Part shown: piece after piece, positions 2 through 48,545 of the stretch
Numbering within the stretch: the stretch's first letter is position 1
Layout: the number at the start of each line of letters is the position of its first letter
NCBI GenBank assembly: GCA_002862125.1
Contig: PHSP01000003.1
Span: 868,001-932,000 of the forward strand
Reading direction: 5' to 3'
DNA length: 64,000 nt
Source of the DNA: Methylobacter sp. KS41
GTDB lineage: Bacteria; Pseudomonadota; Gammaproteobacteria; Methylococcales; Methylomonadaceae
Program-made: the position numbers and the translations under genes
Notes under the pieces: generated by a model
What the model was told of the DNA's origin: nothing
What the model saw: only the letters and a program-made list of their open reading frames with translations
Databases searched by the model: none

Positions 2-1153
2 GAAGGCTATCAAATGGAACTGGAAAGGTACGAGGCAGACTTGGCAAGGTGGAAGGCCGAAAGCGACCAGCAGAACAAAAAATCAGCAGGGGCTAAAAGT
101 CAGGCGGCGAGTGATTACGAAGCCGAAGCAACGTACAGTAACCCGAAGCCCAAAGCACCCGTCATGCCGTTACGGTTTGTCAGTGAACCAACGGTAGAGG
201 GTTTATATAAATTGCTGGCAGCTGGTCAGCCCAGCGTAGGCTTGTTTTCCGATGAAGCGGGCTTGCTGATTGGGGGCCATGCCATGAATAGTGATAACGC
301 TCTAAAGACCATGGCGCGGTTATGTAAATTTTGGGACGGCGCGTCATTTGATCGGGTAAGGGCTGGCGATGGTAGCGGCAGCCTATACGGTAGGCGGCTG
401 GCTATGCACCAACAAGCGCAACCTGATGTTATGGCTAAACTGTTAAGTGACCCTATGGCTAATGGGCAGGGCTTTCTTGCCCGTTGCCTGGTTGCATGGC
501 CTGAATCAACTATAGGCAGTAGGTACGTAGCTAATTTTGAATGGGCCGGGGAACGGCAGGAATTAAAACGCTTATTTGTTGTACTGATAACATTATTTCA
601 AGCGGAACCACGAACCGCAAAATCAGAGCAGGAACTTGATCCGGTAGAGCTTCCGCTTGATGAAGATGCAAAACAAATGGCAATGGCGGCAATAAATGAA
701 TTTGAAACGCTTATGCAATCTGGTAATGATTTATTTGAAATCCGAGAACGCACAGCTAAAGCGGTTGAAAATGCGTGTCGTATCGCTGGCGTACTGGCGG
801 TAATTGATGACGGGATGGCTACCCGTGCAATCAGCGCAAAGCACCTTGGACAGGGCTTAATATTGATTCAATGGTATTTGAAAGAAGCATTACGCATACG
901 CGGCGCGGCGGTTGTTCCTCAATCTACTACCGACGCTGAATCATTATCAAAATGGCTTAATGAACGCGGTTATAGGGCGTTTAGATCACGACAGGTACTA
1001 ACCAAAGGGCCGAGTCAATTACGCAACAAAAAGCGCCTAGATGACGCCATAAAGGAACTTGTAGAAAATGGTTATCTTAGTCCTAACGAGCCTGGAACCA
1101 TCATCGATGGCGTAAGCACGAAGAAATCATGGAGCGTTCGCCATGTGGTTTAA
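2..1153 (+). CDS. DUF3987 family protein of a mobile element (5' end outside window)
   Basis: The reading frame is already open at base 2 (Glu-Gly-Tyr-Gln before the first Met at 14), so the start lies to the left of the window. The visible 380 or so residues match the C-terminal part of DUF3987 proteins, which occur in prophages and integrative elements next to primase or helicase domains. A charged N-terminal stretch is followed by the block GLFSDEAGLLIGGH, then CKFWDG and GRRLAMHQQ. The last 80 residues look like a small winged-helix-type tail (SKWLNERGYRAF). Function in the family is not established; replication of the element is usually inferred. It overlaps the next gene by 11 bases, so it is the first visible member of a short accessory operon. 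Confidence 0.75.
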   Translation, partial: EGYQMELERYEADLARWKAESDQQNKKSAGAKSQAASDYEAEATYSNPKPKAPVMPLRFVSEPTVEGLYKLLAAGQPSVGLFSDEAGLLIGGHAMNSDNALKTMARLCKFWDGASFDRVRAGDGSGSLYGRRLAMHQQAQPDVMAKLLSDPMANGQGFLARCLVAWPESTIGSRYVANFEWAGERQELKRLFVVLITLFQAEPRTAKSEQELDPVELPLDEDAKQMAMAAINEFETLMQSGNDLFEIRERTAKAVENACRIAGVLAVIDDGMATRAISAKHLGQGLILIQWYLKEALRIRGAAVVPQSTTDAESLSKWLNERGYRAFRSRQVLTKGPSQLRNKKRLDDAIKELVENGYLSPNEPGTIIDGVSTKKSWSVRHVV

Positions 1154-1583
1154 TCCGGCTGAATTATCCAAAATTCAAACAACACCCCTTGCTAATCCTG
1201 CTAATTACGAACCGGATATAGGAGAAACAAAGTCTACGATTAGCAGGATTAGCAGGATTAGCAGAATTAGCAGCACCCTTGCCAGCGAGAAGCCTGTTAA
1301 TTGTGGGCAATGTCTGCACTTCAAAAGCTATAGCTTACATGGTAAGGGTTCTGGTATCTGCACCAATAGCGGGGACTATGGGTCATGGAGCGAAACACAG
1401 CACCAGTGCGCTAAATTTGATGCAGCCGTTGAATGGTTGGAGTTGCCCGAACCATCACCGGGCGCTTTGATAGTTACTTGTTACACGCCAAACGGAAAGG
1501 CTATCGAGGTTGAGTCAACCAGCCCGGAACATGCAGAAATTTTGCAGCGAATGAACCCAAAGAGGCCAGAAAATGGCGAATAA
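1143..1583 (+). CDS. Hypothetical cysteine-cluster protein with in-frame nonamer repeat
   Basis: 146 residues. It starts inside the end of the DUF3987 gene and overlaps the next gene by 11 bases, so translation is probably coupled. Near residues 32-44 an in-frame 9-base repeat gives repeated Ile-Ser-Arg. The middle part has four cysteines (NCGQC, then GICT and HQCAKF, roughly residues 54-90) in a layout like a small metal-binding knuckle. Proteins of this sort follow DUF3987 genes in mobile elements. I do not recognise a named family, and metal binding is inference from the cysteine spacing only. Confidence 0.6.
   Translation: MWFNPAELSKIQTTPLANPANYEPDIGETKSTISRISRISRISSTLASEKPVNCGQCLHFKSYSLHGKGSGICTNSGDYGSWSETQHQCAKFDAAVEWLELPEPSPGALIVTCYTPNGKAIEVESTSPEHAEILQRMNPKRPENGE
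1236..1275 (+). repeat. Tandem nonamer repeat (GATTAGCAG, about 4 copies)
   Basis: Four successive 9-base units, the last imperfect (AATTAGCAG), lie inside the coding frame. Each unit adds Ile-Ser-Arg, so loss or gain of a unit keeps the frame. Confidence 0.85.
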
Positions 1584-1839
1584 ATATCCTGTGGAAATAG
1601 ACGGCACAACGGGCGAGGTTGAGAGCATACCCCCCGCCAAAGAGAAACGATACCGCTGCAAATTAGATACATTGGCGGATGTTAAAGCAGAAATGGCGAA
1701 AGTCTATCGTGAGTCAAGATCGGAACTGATCGAACCAGTGACCGGCACAAAATTAATATGGATGCTGCAATCGGTGGCGCGAGTTATTGAGGGTAGCGAT
1801 TTAGAAAAGAGAATTGAAACATTGGAGAATAAAAGATGA
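1573..1839 (+). CDS. Small hypothetical protein of mobile element
   Basis: 88 residues, charged, no membrane segment. The first 30 residues are likely disordered (DGTTGEVESIPPAKEKR); the rest is predicted by eye to be helical (ADVKAEMAKVYRESRSE, then a Glu/Lys-rich end). It overlaps the gene before by 11 bases and the gene after by 4 (ATGA), which supports it being translated as part of the same accessory operon. The length, place and helix pattern resemble small phage or element proteins found beside terminase or primase genes, but I cannot name the family. Confidence 0.6.
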   Translation: MANKYPVEIDGTTGEVESIPPAKEKRYRCKLDTLADVKAEMAKVYRESRSELIEPVTGTKLIWMLQSVARVIEGSDLEKRIETLENKR

Positions 1840-2087
1840 GCATTAAATCCAGATTGTTAAAACTTGAATCGGTATCAAATACCGAGCCAAGACCAGTTCA
1901 CATTATGCGTATCATAGCTGATGTCGGCGATATTATTCCTATCGGCTACAGATGCGGAGAGGTCGAGATAATTCGGCATCCGAACGAATCAGAGGAAGAA
2001 TTTAAAACGCGCTGTCATGATTCCGTTGCTTGGCCTATCGGTGAAAATTATAGGCACATATTCAACCCAATTTATACATCTTCATAG
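1836..2087 (+). CDS. Small hypothetical protein, last gene of the element operon
   Basis: 83 residues, starting in an ATGA overlap with the previous stop. The start MSIKSRLLKLES and the acidic stretch NESEEEFKTRC resemble small phage-borne proteins with an N-terminal basic helix. No catalytic motif is visible and function is unknown. Confidence 0.55.
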   Translation: MSIKSRLLKLESVSNTEPRPVHIMRIIADVGDIIPIGYRCGEVEIIRHPNESEEEFKTRCHDSVAWPIGENYRHIFNPIYTSS

Positions 2088-2107
2088 TGATAAGGATTAC
2101 AGAGAAA

Positions 2108-2188
2108 ATGGATATTGAACAGGAAAACGAATGTTTTAGCGTAGATTATTATTTGGCAAGTGTTGCGGCTGTTTTGGTGCAAAAATAA
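2108..2188 (+). CDS. Possible 26-residue peptide
   Basis: ATG at 2108 runs to TAA at 2186-2188. It follows the element operon by 20 bases, with a purine-rich stretch (cagagaaa) before the ATG. It could be a real small gene or the broken start of a longer one. Support is weak. Confidence 0.2.
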   Translation: MDIEQENECFSVDYYLASVAAVLVQK

Positions 2189-2297
2189 AAAAAGCGTTTC
2201 AATGTCCCCTATTTAGTCCCCTATTTTTATTTTGATGGTCTACAGGCATTGAATTTACTAGGCTCATATACTATAGCTTGGTCCCACGCAAGCTCAC

Positions 2298-2332
2298 AAC
2301 CCCGCAAGCTGTCCGGCTTAGCGGGGTTTTTT
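2298..2332 (+). terminator. Rho-independent terminator at the right edge of the element
   Basis: AACCCCGCAAGC (2298-2309) pairs with GCTT-A-GCGGGGTT (2316-2328) with a single-base bulge, followed by a run of six T. The stretch 2088-2597 otherwise holds one doubtful short ORF, this hairpin and a promoter-like site. I see no tRNA gene or clear direct repeat that would mark the attachment site. Confidence 0.7.
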
Positions 2333-2550
2333 GTATCCGGACATTTCACAAAACTACAAAACTGTATCTTAGGTGATAGTATATGGCGGCAAAAAAACAA
2401 AGACATTAAACTTACGTATCGGCCCGATGATCAAGAAAGGTTTACGACCGATAGCAGAAAAAGAACACTGTCCCCCTATCAACAGTGGAGTTAATGATTC
2501 GCGATTATTATAAGCTTCATAACGTTAACTTCCCGGACAGCAAACCCTTT

Positions 2551-2597: not shown

Positions 2598-5391
2598 ATG
2601 GATACCAAAGAAATCCTCAGTCGTATTTTTAAAGATCCCGCGACACAATACGAACTCACAGAATTTGAAAACCTTGGCAAGCCGATTCACGACATCCTCA
2701 ACATTTATCCAAAAACAGCGGCGACGGGTCGGGAAGCAGGCAAAACCAAGTATTTCTTAAAAAGTTTTATCCCGTTTTCCTCAGGTAACGAAGAAGTCCA
2801 GGTTTATGTCGAAGACGGCAAGGCCAGCCCGGAAGAAATCGTGCGTCAACTTTGGGTGTACAAGCTGATACATCAATACGGCTACAAGGCCGATGAAATC
2901 GATTTGGAAAAAGGCGTGCAATTTGGCACTGAAGTTAACACCAAGGCGGCGGACATTATAGTTTACAGCGATTCGACCAAAACCACGCCAAAAATCATCA
3001 TCGAATGCAAAAAGCCCAAACGTAAAGACGGCATAGAGCAGCTCAAAAGCTATATGAACGCCAAAGGCGCGCCTGTAGCTGTGTGGTCCAACGGCAGCGA
3101 CAGCATTATTCTTTACCGGCCTTATCCTGCGCAATTTGACGACACCCTGTTCGATATACCCAAACGGGGACAGGAACCGAAAGATGTTCTGGAAACAAAG
3201 AAAACCCTGTTGCAACTTAAAAAAGCATTTAACTTTAAAAAAATCGTACAGGATTTGGAAGAGTTGGTGCTTGCAGATAGCGGTAAGGACGAGTTCAATG
3301 AAATTTTTAAACTGATCTTCGCCAAAATTTGGGACGAAAAAGAAGCGCTGGAAAACCGCAAGGATAAGCGCGTCGAATTTAGTAAAGCACTTGATCCTGA
3401 TGTAACCTACGACCGCATCAACGCCTTATTTAAAAGCGCTTGCGTAGAATGGCCCGGTATTTTTAAAATCGGTGAAGATATAGAACTCGCCAAGCGCCAC
3501 CTGCAAGTTTGTGTCGGCCCAATCGAAGGCGTGCGTCTAATGGGGTCAAACCTGCGCATCATGGACGATGCTTTCGAATACCTGCTGCCCACCGAAGCCA
3601 AAAAGAAAAAGGGTCAGTTTTTTACGCCGCGTCATGTAGTGGAAATGTGCGTAAGAATGCTCAACCCCACCCGCGCGGAATATGTCATGGACCCGTCCTG
3701 CGGTTCCGGCGGTTTCTTGCTGCATGCGATGGACTGGTGTTATCCCGCTGATGACAATGAAAAACGCGAACTGCGCAAACACAAATACGCCGGTAAATAT
3801 CTGTGGGGCATAGATTTTGAACAGCGCGCGGCCAAGACCTTACGCGCCTTGATGCTGATTGCCGGAGACGGCCACACCAACATTTTCGGTCCGGATGTCA
3901 GCAGTCTTGATCCGAAAACCTGGTACGAAACCGGTTCCGGCCAAGCACTGATGCACGGGCTACGGCAAGCGAAACTGACTGCCACAACGATTCCAGAAAA
4001 TGAAACCCTCAAGGACGATGACAAAGCCTGGGAATATTTCAACGAACTGAAATTCGACGTGATTCTAGCCAATCCACCGTTTGCCGGGGAAATGAAAGAC
4101 CGCAAAATGCTGGCGCATTACGAATTGGCAAAACCGGCGTTAAAACGGGCCGGAGACGATAAGCAAGCCAAAGAAGAGCGCGATGTACTGTTTATTGAAC
4201 GCATCTTGAAAATGCTCAAGCCTGGCGGCCGTGCGGCGATAGTGTTGCCGCAGGGCAAATTTAACAATTCCTCGCTGGCATTTATCCGCGAATGGATTTT
4301 GAAAAAAGCCCGGTTACTGGCTGTGGTAGGTTTACACCCCCAACACTTTTAAACCCCATACCGGCACTAAAACCTCGGTGTTATTTGTACAAAAATACAC
4401 GCTGCAACAATTGGCTGACATTGCCAAAGTTCATGATGAAGTTGCCACCGCTTGCCCGGATTACGAGGCGGACATTCAGCAGCTGCTCGACAGCCACGCT
4501 ACCGTTTTACTGGAAGACCTTGTTCCCGAAGCGATAGCGGATTTACTGGCCGAGACCTTTGCCGAACCGGAAGCGGAAGACATTACCGAAGCTAACGGAG
4601 ACGCTGAAAGCGAAGACACAGCCGATAATCAACCCGCGTTTAGCGATGAAGACCATCTTGCGCAAGCTGAAGAAAAGCTGGATGCCTTGAAAGCCGAATT
4701 GATCCGTACCAAGCAAAAACTGCTCGATTTAGCCAGCGATACCGAAGCATTGCTACAGCAACAACAAACCGAGCTCTCCGTGGCGCAACAGCAGCAACAA
4801 GAAGAGCTGGAAGCCATCCAATCTAAATGGACCGGCAAAGCAGCGGAATTGACGGCTTACAACAAACCGAAAAAGGCCGAACATAAAAAAGCTATTCAAG
4901 ACATCAAGGCGGAATATAGCGCTAAGCTTAAGATCAGCAAAGACCGGCAAAAAACGGCGGAAAAAGCCCTTAAAGCCGAGCAGAAACGCCTGGAAAAATT
5001 GATTCCGCAAGCCGAGCGGGAGTTAAAACTGCTGACCTTGCGCGGCAAACTGGAGCTGGTGTTAGCCGATGCCGATTTAATCGGTATCCTGAAAGAACGC
5101 TGGATAGCCGCTGAAGTCGCCAAGCGTTTGGATTACCCGATTTTTATGGCGGTTAGCGAACGCGGCGGCAAGAACAATTCCGGGGATTATGATTATGTCA
5201 TCGATGCTAACGGCAATCTGATTGAAGACCACGACGGGCAGCCGAAAATTAATCAGGATCTGGTCAATTACGATTTGACGGCGGATGATTTGACTGATGC
5301 CACTAAAATTCCCGATGCACAGCTTTGTGTTGCCGAGGCCTTTGTGAGGTTTGCCCAAGAGCAGGGATTGGAATTTTGGGGGGCGGAGTAA
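2598..5391 (+). pseudogene. Type I-like N6-adenine methylase fused to a PD-(D/E)xK-type N-domain, frameshifted
   Basis: About 930 codons in two frames. The first part (2598-4352) has an N-terminal nuclease-like domain of the HsdR_N type with D119 and E136-C-K138. It continues into an N6_Mtase domain with motif I DPSCGSGGF (from residue 365) and catalytic motif IV NPPF (from 492). At a run of five C (4337-4341) one extra C shifts the frame into a stop; removing it gives GLHPNTFKP and joins 4378-5391 directly. The second part holds a long Gln/Glu/Lys coiled coil (about 4650-5030) and a conserved tail. Without the lesion it would be a one-chain modification subunit that might also cut DNA, paired with the specificity gene downstream. 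It may be inactive, a phase-variable C-run, or a sequencing error. Confidence 0.8.
5285..5391 (+). repeat. Copy 1 of duplicated methylase tail
   Basis: This is the last ~35 codons of the methylase. A diverged second copy lies at 5553-5660; both encode the core AEAFVRFAQEQ followed by LEFW and AE. The DNA is similar but not identical, so the duplication is not recent. Confidence 0.75.
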
Positions 5392-5436
5392 TGGCGCTTA
5401 GTAACCATAGGGTTTTGTTTGCAATGTGCCCCGGTT

Positions 5437-5548
5437 TTTCTCGTTCCCACGCTCTGCGTGGGAACGCATACCGCAACGCTCCGGCGTTGCGTCACGCAGG
5501 AGCGTCACTGGCTGCATTCCCACGCAGAGCGTGGGAACGAGACCGGGT
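5437..5548. repeat. REP-like palindromic element between two methylase tails
   Basis: The outer arms are CTCGTTCCCACGC at the left and GCGTGGGAACGAG at the right. The left arm is itself part of a small palindrome (TCCCACGC-TCT-GCGTGGGA), and an inner hairpin CGCAACGC...GCGTTGCG follows. The layout matches a bacterial REP/BIME-type extragenic element. It lies just after the methylase stop, inside an otherwise tightly packed operon. Confidence 0.75.
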
Positions 5549-5552
5549 AGCG

Positions 5553-5660
5553 GCTGATTTGGCCTATGCCGCAGGAATTTCCGATGAACGGCTTTGTATT
5601 GCCGAGGCATTTGTGAGGTTTGCTCAGGAGCAGAGATTGGAATTTTGGAGGGCTGAGTGA
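5553..5660 (+). pseudogene. Second, diverged copy of the methylase C-terminal tail
   Basis: It encodes 35 residues ending AEAFVRFAQEQ-R-LEFWRAE and then TGA, parallel to the true tail at 5285-5391. It has no start or upstream domain of its own. It is most simply a remnant of another methylase gene or of an exchange of 3' ends. Its stop overlaps the ATG of the specificity gene by one base, so this remnant may be the ancestral junction to that gene. Confidence 0.65.
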
Positions 5661-7012
5661 TGGCCATAATTTCCGAAATCACATTATCAATGATAAATGG
5701 GAGATTTGATTCCGAGTATTACCAACCAAAATATCTTGAAAGTGCTAAAAAATTATCTAATTTTGAGACAAAGAAATTAGTATCTATTGCAAATGTAAAC
5801 GGTGGAAAACGACTTCCTCTTGGTCATTCTTTAACAATTGATGGTATTCCATATGTAAGAGTTGTCGATATAAATAATGGATTCATACATCGCAATCAAA
5901 TTGCCTATATAGATGAAACCACTTGGCGATATATAAAATCTTATGACATCAGAGAAGATGATGTTCTAGTCACCATTGTTGGTAATACAGTTGGCTTAAC
6001 CGGGATTCTAAAAGAAAATTTAGGGACTGCAAATTTCACTGAAAATTGCGCCCGAATTAGAAACTGCAAACTTGGGGCAAATTATGTTCTTGCATACTTA
6101 TTATCAAAATATGGACAAAATCAGGTTGAACGGGAAAAAGTTGGTACAGCTCAACCTAAGCTATCGCTGGATCGGCTCAGGCGTTTTGTTATTCCAATAT
6201 TTGAGTCTAAAGAACTGGGTAAAATAAATTTTTACATAAGTTCTTCATCTATATGCCATAACGATTCGAACCGACTATATGAAGAAGCACAACAACTTTT
6301 AGAATCCGAATTGAGCTTAGATAAGCTGAGTTTTCAAAAACCAGTGGGCTATACGGCAAAGTTTAGTGAGTTGGAGCTATCCCGCCGCTTGGATGCTCAG
6401 CATTACCAAGCCCAATTTACAAAATTGCTTAATCATCTTGCCAAATTTCCAAGTCGTAAAGTCCGCGAGATTCGAACCTGTAACCGGCGGGGCATCCAGC
6501 CGATTTATGTAAGTGACGGTGCTTATGATGTCATTAACAGCCAGTATCTTGGCTCGAAGCATATTAATTATGACGGCTTGCAAAAAACTTCGCCCCAAGC
6601 TTTTGCAGCATCGCCCGTAGCTCATATTCGACAAAATGATTTGCTGATTTACACTGCCGGCGCGTATATCGGCAGAACCAATGTCTATTTAAGCGATGCC
6701 CCAGCCTTTGCAAGCAACCACGTCAATATTCTTCGCATAACGCCAGACATTGATGCGGCTTATATGGCGACGGTGTTTCAGTCGGTGGTCGGTCAGTTTC
6801 AGACGCAAAAACATTCCCGAGGCAGTGCTCAAGCGGAACTGTATCCGAACGACATTGACAAATTTGTTGTTCCGATTTTGTCTGTCAAACAGCAAAGGAT
6901 TATTGGTGATCTTGTTCGTGAAAGTTTGGTAAAACAGCGCGAATCTGAGAGCTTACTCGAACAAGCCAAAGCCCGCGTCGAACAACTGATCGAAGAAGCG
7001 GTGCAATCATGA
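5660..7012 (+). CDS. hsdS: Restriction-modification specificity subunit (HsdS-like)
   Basis: 450 residues from ATG at 5660, which shares its A with the stop of the methylase-tail remnant; a GTG at 5657 is the alternative start. It has two target-recognition halves, each closed by a helix: the first ends near the block FVIPIFESKELGK (about residues 175-220), the second at FVVPILSVKQQR with a long C-terminal helix. In the family such a subunit binds a two-part DNA target and steers the methylase. The first half (5660-6330) is clearly richer in A and T than the second half and its neighbours, which suggests the recognition domain was exchanged from another source. It overlaps the next gene by 4 bases (ATGA). 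Confidence 0.85.
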   Translation: MAIISEITLSMINGRFDSEYYQPKYLESAKKLSNFETKKLVSIANVNGGKRLPLGHSLTIDGIPYVRVVDINNGFIHRNQIAYIDETTWRYIKSYDIREDDVLVTIVGNTVGLTGILKENLGTANFTENCARIRNCKLGANYVLAYLLSKYGQNQVEREKVGTAQPKLSLDRLRRFVIPIFESKELGKINFYISSSSICHNDSNRLYEEAQQLLESELSLDKLSFQKPVGYTAKFSELELSRRLDAQHYQAQFTKLLNHLAKFPSRKVREIRTCNRRGIQPIYVSDGAYDVINSQYLGSKHINYDGLQKTSPQAFAASPVAHIRQNDLLIYTAGAYIGRTNVYLSDAPAFASNHVNILRITPDIDAAYMATVFQSVVGQFQTQKHSRGSAQAELYPNDIDKFVVPILSVKQQRIIGDLVRESLVKQRESESLLEQAKARVEQLIEEAVQS

Positions 7013-8052
7013 GCGGAAAAAAATCAAACCCCGGTCAAACGGCTTTGCCTTTCGCCGGCGATTTATTGCTTTATCAAACCGAAGACGGCCAAACCCGCAT
7101 CGAGGTGCGTTTACAGGATGAATCGGTGTGGATGACGCAAGCGATGATGGCGGAGTTGTTCCAAACCAGCGCGCAAAATATCACGCTACACATTAAGGCA
7201 ATTTATCGTGACTGCGAACTGCAAGAAGTGGCAACTTGTAAGGAATACTTACAAGTTCAAACCGAAGGCAAGCGTGAGATTTCCAGAGCGCGTAAGTTTT
7301 ACAATTTGCCGGTTATTTTGGCGGTAGGCTTTCGAGTGCGTTCCCCGCGCGGCACGCAGTTCCGGCGCTGGGCTATCGAACGCTTGAACGAATACTTGGT
7401 GAAAGGCTTCACGATGGATGACGAACGCCTAAAGCAAGTCGTCAACATCGGTTCCGATTATTTCGATGAAATGCTGGAGCGTATCCGCGACATCCGTTCC
7501 AGCGAGAAGCGCTTTTATCAGAAAATCCGCGATATTTATAAACTGGCGGTTGATTACGATCCTAAAGCCGAAGAAACGCTGGCTTTTTTCAAGATCGTAA
7601 AAAATTAACTGCATTTCGCCATTTCCGGCAAAACTGCCGCCGAATTGATTGCTGATCGCGCCGACGCCGGCCAGCCGAATATGGGCTTAACTGCCTGGAA
7701 AGGCGCAAAAGTCCGCAAAGGTGATGTAACCATTGCCAAGAATTATCTGAACAGTGATGAAATGGAGAATCTGAACCGTATTGTCAGCATGTATCTGGAT
7801 TATGCCGAAGACCAAGCCAAACGCCACCAACAAATTTTTATGCGCGACTGGCGCACAAAGCTGGATGCGTTTTTGCAATTCAACGAGCGCGATATTTTGA
7901 CCAATACTGGAAAAGTTAGCAAAGCGGTCGCCGATCAACTGGCATTGGAACAATACGAAAAATTCAATCAACACCGTTTGGCAAGTGAAGCGGAACAAGA
8001 GGCTTTGCTTGATGATGCGGAATTACAGGATTATCTGGAGAAAAAACGATGA
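7009..8052 (+). pseudogene. RhuM family protein interrupted by one in-frame stop
   Basis: 348 codons in a single frame, matching the usual length of RhuM proteins (about 330-345 residues), with a TAA at 7606-7608. The first part (199 residues) has the RhuM block YQTEDGQTRIEVRLQDESVW and an antirepressor-like helix region. The frame continues after the stop with LHFAISGKTAAELIADRADA and NMGLTAWKG, typical of the family. One base change (AAA to TAA) would explain the stop. RhuM was named as a Salmonella virulence-region protein; its copies in restriction islands have no proven role. It overlaps the small gene after it by 4 bases. Confidence 0.8.
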
Positions 8053-8228
8053 ATTTGACTACGGAAGATCAACGCTTGCTGGAAGAGCTTTGCCAGGAGC
8101 ACCAAGTAAGTTTGGATAAGGTCGTTAAATTGTTGGACACGGTGCGCGAATATGAATTTAAAGAGCGGCGAACCGGGGTATATGATGCCTTGAAAGAGAT
8201 TATCAAAGCCGGGCGGGTGGAAGCATGA
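8049..8228 (+). CDS. DNA modification system-associated small protein
   Basis: 59 residues: MNLTTEDQRLLEELCQEHQ, then a helix with VDTVREYEF-like spacing and an end YDALKEIIKAGRVEA. It overlaps RhuM by ATGA and the DndD-like gene by ATGA (8225-8228), so the frame is fixed on both sides. Small charged helical proteins of this kind precede dndD-like ATPase genes in modification islands. It is likely an adaptor or regulator, but its job is unknown. It is intact, unlike four of the six island genes. Confidence 0.75.
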   Translation: MNLTTEDQRLLEELCQEHQVSLDKVVKLLDTVREYEFKERRTGVYDALKEIIKAGRVEA

Positions 8229-10215
8229 AATTTACCAAGCTGGTCATCGAGAATTACAAATCCTTTCAGTTTGCGACGGAAATTCTTTTTCCGGTTGGTG
8301 CTGACGGCAAAAGCATTTTCCTGATTGGCAGCATGAACGGCGCCGGTAAAACATCGATTATGGAAGCCGTTAGTTATTGCTTGTATGGCGCTAAACCGGA
8401 AATGATTTATAAGAATATCAATCGAAAGGAATTGGCGCGCGGCAATACGTCGGTTTCTTTTGAATTGGTGGTGGAACAGGATGACGGCTCAGAGTTGATT
8501 GTAAAGCGCTCATGGAGCAGCGGAGCGATTAATGATGCCAAGCCTAAGGATTTGGACGAACGTTTAGTGGTAGTACAGGACGGCAAGCGGGTTTCGGTGC
8601 AGAACAAGCAGATGTGGCAGGATTTTATCCGCGCCACCATCCCGCCCGGCATTACCCAGTTTTTCTTTTTCGACGGCGAAAAAATCCAAGAAATCGCTGC
8701 CGACGATCATTCTGAGGTTCGTCTGAAAAAGTCACTGGAAGCAGCGCTTGGTATTGAATATATCACCAAACTTTCGGAAGATGTTTTGTATATTAAGGCC
8801 GAAGAGCGTAAAGGCTTTGTACAGATTTCCGACGAAGACCTGGAATTTAAGGAAAGCGAACTTAAGCGGGAAAAAAGTAAAGTCGGACGCAAGATTCAAG
8901 AACGGAATGAGGTAAAAGCCGAACTGGATGCGTTCAAAAATCGACATCAGGAAGCAAAGGAACGCTTTCAGGCCACTTTCAATAGCGAGCCTGGAACGCG
9001 TGACAGCATCCGGGAGGCGGAAAAATCCCGCATCCAGACGTCTAACCGCTTGGGACAAGTGGAAAACGAAATTAAGATTTTATGCGAAGGCGTTTTACCG
9101 TTTGCAATCGCTGGGCGATTGTTTGGCGATATTCGTAAACAAATCGATTCAGAGCGCGAGAGTGTGCAATACGAAGCCATACGCGACAATGCTGCCAGTC
9201 TGGCGCGGAAAATTGTGCGTGTTGTTGAGGACCCGGAGCCGATTTACCGGGAAAAGTTGTCGGCTGAAAAAATGGCGGAACTTGAGCAGCGGATTTTTTG
9301 TTTATTGCAGCAGGGCGATTCGGTTAAAGAGAGTATCAAGGTACTGAATCTTTCTGATCGTGATGCGGCGCGTGTGTTGCAAAAAATGGAAACACTGGAA
9401 AACAGCGATGTGTTTTTGATTCAATCATTATTGGAAGAAAAACAGGAACTGGCTATTCAGGTTCGGCAATTGGAGGCTGCGTTACAGCCGGGTATTACTT
9501 CGGATTCGGAAAAAGAATTGTTCGATCAATTACAGGCGGAAATGGAAAGCTGCTCAACTCAGATTGGCCGTAAAACCGAACAATTACGTTTACTGGAGGA
9601 TGAAATTCTGACGCTGGAAAAACGTATTGGAGACATTGAACTGGATGTAGAAAAGCTTTACGAGAAACACCATGTTTCGAAGGAAAAAGCCGACTTTATT
9701 GAAGAGTGCGACACGATTGCCAATTTGCTGAATCAATACACTGTGCGACTGCGTAAAAATAAGGTGCATTTGTTGCAGGAAAAAACTTTCGAAATGTACC
9801 GGATGCTGTCGAGCAAAGCGGTTTAATTAAGGATATTCTGATCGATGACAAGAGCTATGCTATCAAGATGATCGACCGCAACGGCCATGAAATTAAAAAA
9901 TCCAGTCTTTCCGCTGGTGAAAAGGAGGTCTTCGCTTTGTCGTTGTTGTGGGGTTTGGCGCAAACCAGTCAGTTGCAATTGCCTATTTTAATTGATACGC
10001 CGCTGTCCAGACTCGATAGCACGCATAGGGACAATATCATCAAGCATTATTTCCCCAATGCAGGTCAACAGGTGATTATTCTTTCTACCGATACCGAAAT
10101 AGACAAGGATTATTACCGTAATTTACAACCCTATTTGAGCGGTGCCGCCAGCCTGGAATTTGAACCCCGGCAGGAATTAACGACCGTTAAGCAAGGCTAT
10201 TTTTGGGAGCAATAG
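8225..10215 (+). pseudogene. dndD: DndD-like SMC/Rad50-type ATPase, frameshifted near its C-terminus
   Basis: Walker A GSMNGAGKT at residues 35-43, a DndD block FFFFDGEKIQEIAADD near 145-160, then about 330 residues of coiled coil. After a one-base deletion around 9819-9823 the frame moves to 9868-10215, which supplies the ABC signature (SLSAGEKEVFALSLLWG) and Walker B (LPILIDTPLSRLD). Joined, the product is about 663 residues, a normal DndD length. DndD ATPases act with DndC and DndE in phosphorothioate modification, but no dndA, dndB or dndC is present here. The truncated 533-residue product lacks the signature and Walker B and cannot form a complete ATP site. Confidence 0.85.
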
Positions 10216-10218
10216 AGC

Positions 10219-11743
10219 ATGGCGGACCGTTTGTATACTTCTAGCGAAGCGGATGAAATTTTAAGTTCCTTACGCTTTGAAACTCGTTTGGAAAAAGCCG
10301 TTTTGGCGCGCATTGCTTTTGCCGTTTCGCTGGTTAAGGACGGTAAAAATGTCCCTGAAAGCGCTAATTTCAGTGGCGGCGAATTAAAGCGGCCTACTTT
10401 TTTGGCCCTGATGAATTATTTATTCGTAGCCTACTGGCGCATGTGCATGGGAAAGGCGATATTACCGAGGATGCGTTTTTTTCCAATCGCTCGCTGATCA
10501 AAAATCATATCGATCAGGGGAGTCTGGCTATGGAGCAACTGTATATTGAAAGCGGGCGCAGTGCCGAGGGTTTGATAAAGAGTCTGGTTGACCTGGTGGA
10601 GTTTCAGGGCCGCAAGGAATTACGGGGGCGTGGATTGGATATTTTTATCGGCAGAACTTTATTGCAAAAAGCCGATTTGATTATGGAATTGAATAATACC
10701 GATAAACATGCCAACTCGCATTTGGCGATTATGGGTAAACCGGGGGTGGGGAAGACCCAGTTTTTGCTGAAAATTCTGGCGGATATTCGCATTCAATCGA
10801 ATTACCAAACCCATTTCATTTATTTTGATTACAAAGGCGATGTGGTTGATAACCAACGTTTTCTGGATATTGCCAAAGTCCAGCCTTTTAGACTTTTGCA
10901 AGGCAACCAACGTCTGCCGATCAATCCGTTTGTATTGCCCGCTTATGATGAACAAACGATCAATATTTCAGCACGGGAAAAGGCGGAAAGCTTCGCTTCT
11001 ATCAATTCCAAGTTGGGTGTAGTACAGAAAGGCGCATTAACCGAAGCATCCGGGCAGGCTATGCAAAGCGTGCTGGTTCCGACGCACCTTATCCCGATTT
11101 TCAGGATATTCTGGAAATTGCCAATCTGATGTATGAAGAGGAAGAAAAAAAGGATGATAGCCTGATTGAAGTTCTTCGCGATTTAGCCGTTTTTGAATTG
11201 TTCTGGAAGCATGGAGATGAAGTCGCGCCTATCGATAAGATTTCTAATCGAACCATGCTAATTGACGTTCACGCCATGCCGGTTTTGAAAGAACTGGTCG
11301 CTTATTTGGTAATCGAGCGACTTTATAAGGAAATGTCTTTGTTGCCGGATAGCCCGGTCGAAGACGGCAAGCGGACCATACGCACGATATTGGTCATTGA
11401 CGAGGCGCACAATTACTTAAGCCAGAAAAATATGTTTTTGCAGCGTATTATCCGTGAGGGACGTTCCAAAGGCATTGTTGTTTTCTTTGCGTCACAATCG
11501 CCGAATGATTATCAGCAGAAGTTCTTTAATTTTCAAGAATTACTGGAGTTTGCTTATATCTTCCAATGTGATGGGGTTTCAGCAAGCTCTGTTCAGGATA
11601 TTTTAGGCTGTGGCAGTAAGACTGCAAAAGATTTACAGACCGAGATTGCAAGGTTAGAACCCTTTCAGGTTATGAGTCGTTCGCAGGTGAAAACGGAAGA
11701 ATTTGTTAAATTTGAGGCTGAGGCATTTTATAAGAATTATTAA
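10219..11743 (+). pseudogene. DndE domain fused to HerA/FtsK-like ATPase, two frameshifts
   Basis: Three frame segments join into about 508 codons. Residues 1-115 resemble DndE (DUF1832): LYTSSEADEILSSLRFETRLEKAV and the block PTFLALMNYLF. A one-base loss near 10439-10441 shifts the frame, as does another near 11070-11071. The rest is a HerA/FtsK-type ATPase: Walker A GKPGVGKTQ near residue 172, FIYFDYKGD, and Walker B ILVIDEAHN near 391, followed by a sensor-like ASQSP. DndE is usually a separate protein of about 120 residues, so the fusion is notable. The start is 3 bases after the dndD stop. As read, no complete ATPase can be made. Confidence 0.8.
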
Positions 11744-47519: not shown

Positions 47520-48545
47520 TCAAGCCGGTTCGCCCTCCGGCAGGTAATCGGTTTCTTTGCTCAGCAGAGCCCAAGCTATACGCGCATTTTTGTTAGCCAA
47601 GGCGACAGCGGCAATGTTTTTATTGCGTCTGCTACATAAGTTTTGCAACCAGCGACTGCGCGGATCGTCTTTCTTTCCCACGACTTTTAACGCAGATCGA
47701 GCACCATGAATCAGCAGCGTGCGCAAGTAAGCATCGCCACGCTTACTGATACCCAGCAGTCGATCTTTGCCTCCACTGCTGTGTTGTCTGGGTGTTAGAC
47801 CCAGCCAGGAGGCCATGTCCCTTCCACGTTGAAATTGCTTACCATCTCCGATTGCGCAGATCAAGGCCGTGGCGATAATCGGACCAATGCCCGGAATCTG
47901 TTGCAAACGCTTGGCGGCTGGATTGCTAGTAGCCAGCGTTTTTATTTTCTTATCCAGGTCATCAACACGTTCATCCAGCGTAACAAGATCTTGTCTTAAC
48001 CCATCAAGCAGCACTTTAAAGTCAGCAGTCAACCCATTTTCAGTCTCTTCAAGTAACTGCGGTAAGGCGTTACGAAGCACATCCACACGCCGACCAACGA
48101 CAATACCATATTCGGCGAGCAAACCTCTAATCTGGTTTACTTTCGCGGTACGCTGTTTCACTTGCTCACTGCGGATGCGATGAAGGGCCTGAATATCTTG
48201 CTGAGCGATGGTCTTAATCGCAACGAACCGCATGTTAGGACGCGCAACCGCTTCGCAGATCGCTTCCGCATCATTGGCGTCGTTTTTGTTGCTTTTAACG
48301 TAGGGTTTAACAAACTGCGGCGCCATCAATTTAACGGTATGACCCAGCTTTTGTAGCTCTCTTGCCCAATAATGCGCACCGCCACAGGCTTCCATACCAA
48401 TCAAGCAGGGCGGCAGCTTTTTAAAGTAATCCAACAATTGGACTCTACGTAACTGCTTGCGTAATACGACCTTTTCTTGACCATCAACGCCATGTACTTG
48501 AAAGACCTGTTTTGCCAAATCGATACCTATTCGTTTAATATTCAT
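47520..48545 (-). CDS. IS110 family transposase (DEDD type)
   Basis: 341 residues. The N-terminal RuvC-like DEDD domain starts GIDLAKQVFQVHG and has LIGMEACGGAHYWAR and KNDANDAEAICEA. The C-terminal Tnp-IS116/IS110/IS902 domain has LQQIPGIGPIIATAL and FQRGRDMASWLGLTPRQHSSGG with the conserved serine region (HSSGGK). The gene is intact, so the element may be active. SD is not obvious; the start at ATG 48545 follows the GGACTCCTCC copy. Confidence 0.95.
   Translation of the reverse strand: MNIKRIGIDLAKQVFQVHGVDGQEKVVLRKQLRRVQLLDYFKKLPPCLIGMEACGGAHYWARELQKLGHTVKLMAPQFVKPYVKSNKNDANDAEAICEAVARPNMRFVAIKTIAQQDIQALHRIRSEQVKQRTAKVNQIRGLLAEYGIVVGRRVDVLRNALPQLLEETENGLTADFKVLLDGLRQDLVTLDERVDDLDKKIKTLATSNPAAKRLQQIPGIGPIIATALICAIGDGKQFQRGRDMASWLGLTPRQHSSGGKDRLLGISKRGDAYLRTLLIHGARSALKVVGKKDDPRSRWLQNLCSRRNKNIAAVALANKNARIAWALLSKETDYLPEGEPA

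Follow-up and report, generated by a model that had tools for sequence, protein, structure and literature searches.

Several published systems come close to the locus described here. As far as the accessible text of PMC10853773 goes, DndDE cores without DndA and DndC, CxC-DndE sets accompanied by cytosine methylases, and fusions of DndE with HerA or FtsK ATPases are all on record. The accessible part of another study reports that residues 433-482 of DndC contact the globular domain of DndD in an AlphaFold3 model, and that the substitutions L458D/E462A/R471A in DndC break DndD binding in pull-downs (PMC12193691). The stretch of DNA analysed here (hereafter the window) comprises 64,000 nucleotides of the Methylobacter sp. 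KS41 genome and carries, at 2598-11743 of its + strand, an operon in which genes for a type I-like adenine methylase (M) and its specificity subunit (S) are followed by a RhuM-like gene, a gene for a small protein of 59 amino acids (Sp), the gene for DndD and that for a fusion of DndE with a HerA-type ATPase (DndE-HerA). Family scans confirm these six gene types, in this place and order, as an earlier note made from the sequence had described them.

The operon of the window has decayed; intact versions of its gene set, which associates a type I-like methylase with Dnd-type motor proteins, exist in other bacteria. The combination of an adenine M-S pair with DndD and DndE-HerA appears to be new, DndDE-type cores with cytosine methylases being known. 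On balance, we consider it probable that this operon type is an adenine-methylation, ATP-driven defence of the restriction-modification (R-M) type, in which DndD and DndE-HerA would replace the HsdR motor and M would be the nuclease.

Recurrence of the gene order

Homologous loci were sought by a contig scan, using an alignment of four DndE-HerA proteins as the query and requiring one of two peptide patterns, so that more distant DndE-HerA relatives are missed. The 137 pattern matches include 19 DndE-HerA relatives, sixteen of which are about 70% identical or more and three only 25-31%. The hosts of the sixteen close relatives are gamma- and betaproteobacteria, Thermodesulfobacteriota and Bacillota, and include Methylotuvimicrobium buryatense 5G (locus L042), Nitrosomonas sp. 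Nm51, a metagenome-assembled genome (MAG) of Candidatus Thiosymbion, Desulfamplus magnetovallimortis and Halalkalibacter oceani.

When neighbouring genes are compared by tblastn, about 3 kb or more upstream of Sp is visible in ten of the sixteen loci. M with S is found upstream in seven of these ten (L042, L043, L045, L046, L048, L049 and L057), in the same-strand order M-S-(RhuM)-Sp-(X)-DndD-DndE-HerA and with genes often overlapping or nearly touching, X being an optional gene of 206-233 amino acids sited between Sp and DndD where present. Among the seven, S is whole, cut or half-fused, and L046 and L057 carry interrupted genes; the five core genes are all open in L042, L043, L045, L049 and a further locus, L099. 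The other six of the sixteen end at contig ends or are truncated, L047 still showing the tail of S, and L044 and L050 the RhuM-like gene. Among 398 genomes of the H. oceani phylum, one besides H. oceani has DndE-HerA (80% identity), and its X-like, M, S, Sp, DndD and DndE-HerA genes are all open, while in the phylum to which L057 belongs, that of L057 itself is the only one of 198 genomes with DndE-HerA. The gene order in the window is thus more than chance, because seven other loci share it, as does an additional genome from the Halalkalibacter phylum.

Closer to KS41, DndD matches at 1e-15 or better occur in 20 of 301 genomes of its order; five of them, including the window, reach at least 90% identity, and another is a remnant with 85% identity. 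M relatives of at least 80% identity are present in six of the same 301 genomes, as an open gene in M. buryatense, in the genome of L032 and in a third genome (G664), with a deletion in G518 and as a fragment in G529, the sixth being the window. In G664 (locus L085), M stands with a cut S, and no Dnd-type gene is found in the 15 kb examined, the contig ending 1 kb past S. Remnants of the operon are found in L036, L086 and L087. In the last, nothing remains but the beginning of M and the final part of DndE-HerA, oriented as they would be if a complete set with this gene order had formerly occupied the site. No full operon was found on plasmids among the records listed (30 of 41 for DndD, 30 of 225 for M and 17 of 17 for DndE-HerA) or in the eight plasmid stretches examined.

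The distances between M proteins and those between DndE-HerA proteins correlate over seven loci (r 0.78, a value reached by 5 of 5040 label permutations); without L043, r is 0.61 (2 of 720 permutations). With six loci r was 0.88, and it dropped to 0.78 on adding the seventh.

Methylase, nuclease domain and specificity subunit

The earlier note had read M as a methylase with a PD-(D/E)xK-like domain of its own, and the HSDR_N_2 match of M (Table 1) bears this out. The methylase motifs DPSCGSGGF and NPPF are present in seven of seven M proteins and in the window. The nuclease motif, read from alignments of M proteins, consists of D119, E136, K138, Q148 and Y152 (L033 numbering), all invariant in the seven aligned proteins and present in window M. 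At the sequence level, M joins an N6-adenine methylase domain to a PD-(D/E)xK-type domain of the HSDR_N_2 family. No SF2 or HsdR motor was recognised by Pfam in the 11 operon pieces, nor in the homologues scanned from L033. The absence of HsdR that had been claimed thus holds for the motor; it is incomplete for the nuclease, as an HsdR-type nuclease domain sits on M.

S is far more variable than the neighbouring operon genes: window S is 60% identical to that of L032 and 28% to that of L033, whereas the other window parts are mostly about 84-99% identical to their open-gene relatives in L032, L033 and L034. L048 has a fusion of M with half an S, beside the Dnd-type module.

Motor proteins and the small protein Sp

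DndD of L033 scores 371.6 bits with TIGR03185, over the NCBIfam cut-off of 245.85, and Walker A is present in six of six DndD proteins. With PADLOC models, DndD scores 446.1, and PbeC models also score high (412.5). The DndE domain of homologues is over the Pfam cut-off (34.7 vs 25) and under that of NCBIfam (36.5 vs 71.85). The HerA part carries Walker A and Walker B in seven of seven proteins; in L033 its best match is residues 1337-1713 of DndH (8.9e-40), followed, after further DndH models, by mad8 (2.1e-19). Several nodes of the HerA tree are weak (0.05-0.45). The fusion of DndE with a HerA/FtsK ATPase that had been announced for the window is a single protein, of 508 amino acids, only in relatives; in the window it lies in three pieces, of which the last gives weak matches to the Pfam families AAA_10 and HerA_C, under their cut-offs. 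In another locus (L035:5463-14951), Sp-DndD-DndE-HerA follows a type III R-M system, and its DndD and DndE-HerA genes are interrupted.

Sp of the window matches the C-termini of DndC models (2.3e-8 with PADLOC; 3.6e-7 and 6e-6 with NCBIfam). When a profile of 13 Sp proteins is compared with 11 target sequences, it matches residues 436-485 of E. coli DndC (1.2e-5), the DndC of L008 (7.8e-6) and a small protein of L058 (2.2e-6). Eight targets gave no significant match: five are DndC proteins of 355-416 amino acids, apparently tail-less, and the remaining ones are the DndC of L009 (0.12) and the small proteins of L031 (0.19) and L005 (1.1). Positions 458, 462 and 471 of the E. coli DndC in this comparison are indeed L, E and R; of these, Sp shares the L and the R, and the E is not kept. 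In L096, a DndC of 393 amino acids is followed by a separate small protein of 74 amino acids, an arrangement that fits one protein split into two. Sp would thus be related to the tail by which DndC docks to DndD, here as a protein of its own, the plug having been retained and the sulphur enzyme being gone. A weak PADLOC match (0.0054) prompted a search for a methylase with an Sp-like tail; none was found, and the five longer tailed frames checked (in L008, L009, L093, L094 and L095) are DndC.

Gene X and accessory genes

Among ten copies of X, Pfam matches are to Mrr_N in seven (one over the cut-off) and to RAMA in two (one over the cut-off), and one copy has none. The C-terminal domain is confidently predicted (block means 79-94 over residues 121-210); compared with the PDB, its structure matches nothing at 0.001, the best value being 0.094, with several winged-helix domains. 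With an Mrr_N-like or RAMA domain, X could possibly be a reader of modified DNA. X-like genes also occur in other positions. One lies upstream of M in L099 (12628-13272), its RAMA-type domain scoring slightly below the cut-off of Pfam, and two flank DndD and DndE-HerA in L050, the first (1723-2376) with a RAMA domain and the second (5925-6563) without a Pfam match.

The RhuM-like gene is shortened and followed by a DUF4258 gene in L033 (8548-9619) and L032 (9497-10186). In L033 and L043, a gene of YgiT-finger type follows the DUF4258 gene, forming a toxin-antitoxin-like pair within the operon.

DndC and the sulphur genes

The scanned operon pieces yielded no recognisable DndA, DndB or whole DndC, DndA having been sought in the operon proteins only. 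Within the 16 genomes of the close clade, several of which are draft MAGs, DndC is over the cut-off in one only, that of L052, on a different contig and together with DndD remains of its own. Of the fifteen others, seven match the end of the DndC model via Sp only and eight have no match; M. buryatense 5G (G698) has no DndC over the cut-off. The gene order thus recurs without dndC, as the earlier note had anticipated, and its proposal of a methylation-based system served by the Dnd-type ATPases is the best fit, with M-S before the module in seven of ten visible loci and DndC in one of 16 genomes.

The genome of KS41 itself does carry a DndC over the cut-off (352 bits), about 343 kb away, so that the claimed lack of DndC stands for the operon and not for the genome. 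The earlier note had named a dndC elsewhere in the same genome as what would refute it; such a gene is found, to the letter, but in a second Dnd locus (L005:8480-15410) that carries DndC, a protein of 70 amino acids, DndD and DndE-FtsK. These are followed there by an ABC ATPase weakly resembling PtuA and then a protein of 292 amino acids without an NCBIfam match. The DndC of L005 belongs to another Dnd locus and does not explain the window operon, because it has its own DndD and DndE-FtsK.

The operon could alternatively be a phosphorothioate system in disguise, its DndD and DndE-HerA working in trans with a distant DndC and M-S being unrelated to them. The presence of DndC in the genomes of KS41 and L052 would suit such a partnership, as would the distant DndE-HerA relatives in L058-L060 (25-31% identity), which adjoin DndC, and likewise that of Methylorubrum AM1. 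We nevertheless hold this to be very improbable: the DndC of KS41 has a small protein, a DndD and a DndE-FtsK of its own, no DndC is over the cut-off in 15 of the 16 close genomes, and the DndD of the operon already has its own Sp. Phosphorothioate activity of the window operon was rejected as the principal interpretation on the grounds that DndC lies in a separate locus and is present in one of the 16 close genomes.

One system or two neighbours

In the reading that we favour, M-S would mark self DNA at adenines within a two-part site, Sp would fill the DndC socket of DndD, and DndD with DndE-HerA, taking the role of HsdR's SF2 motor, would scan and translocate DNA. X, where present, would read the modification state via its Mrr_N-like or RAMA domain, and unmodified DNA would be cut by the nuclease domain of M, the RhuM-like gene and the toxin-antitoxin-like inserts probably being accessories. 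M-S and the Dnd-type module, Sp-(X)-DndD-DndE-HerA, probably form one unit. In favour of this are the recurrence in a single order across phyla, the correlated M and DndE-HerA distances, and the fused M-S that accompanies the module in L048.

Several observations weigh against this reading. M-S and the Dnd-type module are separable halves, since M and S stand without Dnd-type genes on plasmid D of Trichormus variabilis (L030:60-4198), and the module is preceded by a type III R-M system rather than by M-S in one of the ten visible loci (L055, which is the same as L035) and by neither in two others (L052 and L054). The M of Trichormus, a cyanobacterial host, is 86% identical to window M over the first 584 amino acids, and its placement in the M tree is not settled (support 0.79 and 0.85). 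The correlation of M and DndE-HerA distances could also be yielded by common descent of adjacent genes, without physical coupling. In the window, as in L044, L049, L055 and L057, no X separates Sp from DndD. The DndD signature pattern is found in five of six proteins and the DTPL pattern in four of six. Finally, AlphaFold2 gave no usable fold for M (mean predicted local distance difference test score 45.5), so that its nuclease is read from sequence only. As regards the possibility, raised earlier, that the homologues usually lie apart, they do so in these loci and stand together in seven of ten.

These separate occurrences, as well as the nuclease domain that M has of its own, would also be in agreement with two independent neighbours, M-S being a self-sufficient R-M pair of type IIG/IIB-like organisation and Sp-(X)-DndD-DndE-HerA a separate defence module placed next to it in defence islands. 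Chance parking should, however, give mixed orders, whereas order and strand are kept in seven of the ten visible loci across distant phyla, with their overlapping or nearly touching genes, and M and DndE-HerA distances correlate. We regard two independent neighbours as rather unlikely.

A module that occurs alone or with another type of R-M system (L052, L054 and L055) could also be an abortive-infection or plasmid-interference sensor of Rad50/HerA type, which the methylase would silence by marking self DNA, without any cutting by M. The nearest relative of its HerA part, DndH, is proposed to intercept invading DNA in the accessible text of PMC10853773, and X bears reader-like domains. The nuclease motif is nevertheless invariant in the seven aligned M proteins, and the scans of Sp, X, DndD and DndE-HerA revealed neither a toxin nor a nuclease domain, which makes such a sensor unlikely in our view.

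Returning to a defence in which M-S and the module act together, a broader and more tentative possibility is that DndD and DndE-HerA are a general DNA-scanning motor, taking interchangeable self-marking enzymes via one small plug, and that the function of HsdR is split between M as nuclease, DndD/DndE-HerA as motor and X as reader. In phosphorothioate systems, DndC would supply the plug as its own tail, or would lack the tail and be accompanied by a split-off protein acting as the plug. Here it would be free, as Sp, and the marker would be either a type I-like M-S or a type III Mod-Res pair. The gene set suggests that motors of Dnd type are able to work with more than one kind of self-DNA marking. 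If this is true, the Dnd ATPases would be a motor usable by several DNA-marking chemistries rather than a sulphur machine, and the docking piece that enables the exchange would be named and small enough for direct testing. It would also give a sequence handle on the frequent lack of DndA and DndC in DndDE cores. An intact copy of the operon is present in M. buryatense 5G (L042), a species for which genetic tools are in print, as cited in PMC13390346. The accessible part of that source reports that plasmid electroporation of M. buryatense succeeds only if the plasmid comes from the methanotroph and not from E. coli (PMC13390346).

Decay of the KS41 copy and its island

In the window, four of the six genes are interrupted relative to open homologues, M, DndD and DndE-HerA by frame changes and the RhuM-like gene by an in-frame stop, so that M, the RhuM-like gene and DndD each lie in two pieces and DndE-HerA in three (Table 1); only S and Sp are open. 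For the second part of M, the reference is the open M genes of 930-932 amino acids in L032 and L033. Many other window genes look long and uninterrupted in the lists of open reading frames, which points to decay of this region and makes a poor assembly an unlikely source of the interruptions. As judged from its reading frames, the system could no longer be made as whole proteins in Methylobacter sp. KS41, S and Sp excepted.

Table 1. Features of the operon and of the adjoining island gene (positions are those of the window).
Feature	Position	Strand	Evidence
M, first part	2598..4352	+	HSDR_N_2 at about amino acids 78-175, 82.2 bits; N6_Mtase at about amino acids 321-584, 108.3 bits
M, second part, other frame; coiled coil and C-terminal region	4378..5391	+	85% and 89% identity to L032 and L033, respectively
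M/S junction: direct repeat of M end, with hairpin	5281..5664	+	Copies at 5281-5395 and 5550-5664
S, specificity subunit, 451 amino acids, open	5657..7012	+	Methylase_S, 54 bits; PADLOC Specificity_I, 3.3e-45
RhuM-like, first piece	7009..7608	+	PF13310, 192 bits; 90% identity to the open gene of L034 (347 amino acids)
RhuM-like, second piece	7645..8052	+	PF13310, 147.7 bits
Sp (Sp-DndD), 59 amino acids	8049..8228	+	PF20306, 49.8 bits, 3.6e-13
DndD, N-terminal part, Rad50-like ABC ATPase	8225..9826	+	TIGR03185, 182 bits; 91-95% identity to L032-L034
DndD, C-terminal part, other frame	9868..10215	+	TIGR03185, 158.5 bits
DndE domain, start of DndE-HerA gene, internal frame changes	10219..10497	+	PF08870, 28.6 bits (cut-off 25)
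HerA-type ATPase, middle, Walker A	10443..11129	+	DndH C-terminal part, 4.9e-18; 96.5-99% identity to L032-L034 over 202 amino acids
HerA-type ATPase, last part, Walker B (DEAH)	11129..11743	+	94-96% identity to L032-L035 over 204 amino acids
DUF3987 gene, 3' part, island carrying the operon	14..1153	+	L006:7642-9150, PF13148, 295 bits

At the M/S junction, the two copies of a 115-nucleotide direct repeat of the M end have diverged (83% identical), the second matching amino acids 894-932 of M at 77%. Between them lies a hairpin with arms of 49 nucleotides each (5439-5487 and 5494-5542). The repeat and the hairpin were perhaps left by an exchange of S.

Upstream of the operon are integrase, DUF4258, AlpA, Toprim and DUF3987 genes (L006:3537-9150, window 14-2500; base 1 of the window is base 8001 of L006). 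The integrative island is flanked on one side by a glutamine synthetase gene and on the other by genes for a histidine kinase and a sigma-54 activator, presumably ntrB and ntrC. A transposase gene of the IS110 family lies elsewhere in the window, at 47520-48545 (PF02371, 92 bits).

Comparison with known systems

The earlier note had suggested that the arrangement might be undescribed. Its separate elements are not: DndDE cores without DndA and DndC, CxC-DndE with cytosine methylases and DndE-HerA/FtsK proteins are published, as cited above; the variant with M-S was not found in the literature searched. HsdM, HsdS and "specificity subunit" do not appear in the accessible text of PMC10853773, nor does M-S with DndD and DndE-HerA in the accessible parts of PMC12839542, PMC12707154, PMC5608340 and PMC4611135. 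No description of this combination was found among the matches listed in open-licence literature without supplementary files, which does not settle priority.

MADS resembles the operon in part, M of L033 being like MAD2 (252.9 bits), its S like MAD5 (107.7 bits) and its HerA like mad8 (2.1e-19). Membership was rejected, as the MAD2 and MAD5 scores are far under the cut-offs (720 and 400, respectively; 230.5 and 136.5 for window M and S). No other MAD gene was recognised among the operon proteins scanned against NCBIfam, a trace MAD3 match (18.8 bits vs a cut-off of 420) falling on an ABC ATPase of the separate L005 locus; the operon has DndD and DndE instead. With CxC-DndE or PbeABCD, as far as the accessible text of PMC10853773 describes them, the operon shares an ABC ATPase with DndE, a small protein and a base methylase replacing the sulphur genes. 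That methylase is a cytosine methylase, whereas the operon has an adenine type I-like M with S, an ATPase of DndD type and DndE fused to HerA. The HKD nuclease-SF2 helicase PbeA was not among the scanned operon gene products, and membership was rejected since none of six DndD proteins has the C-x(1,2)-C hook pattern.

A type IIG/IIB-like R-M organisation, with nuclease and N6 methylase in one chain beside S, is present in M-S and may describe M-S alone, as in L030. Type I R-M systems share with the operon an HsdM-type N6 methylase, S, an HSDR_N-type nuclease domain and an expected two-part adenine target; the operon differs in that it is without a recognised HsdR/SF2 translocase, bears the nuclease domain on M and has ABC and HerA ATPases instead. 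The HerA domain is nearest to the C-terminal part of DndH, as in DndFGH, although the operon is without DndF, DndG and a multidomain DndH. With DndABCDE, finally, it shares a DndD over the NCBIfam cut-off, a DndE domain and, in Sp, a likeness to the docking tail of DndC; in place of recognised DndA, DndB and DndC, it carries an adenine methylase with S, and its DndE is fused to HerA.

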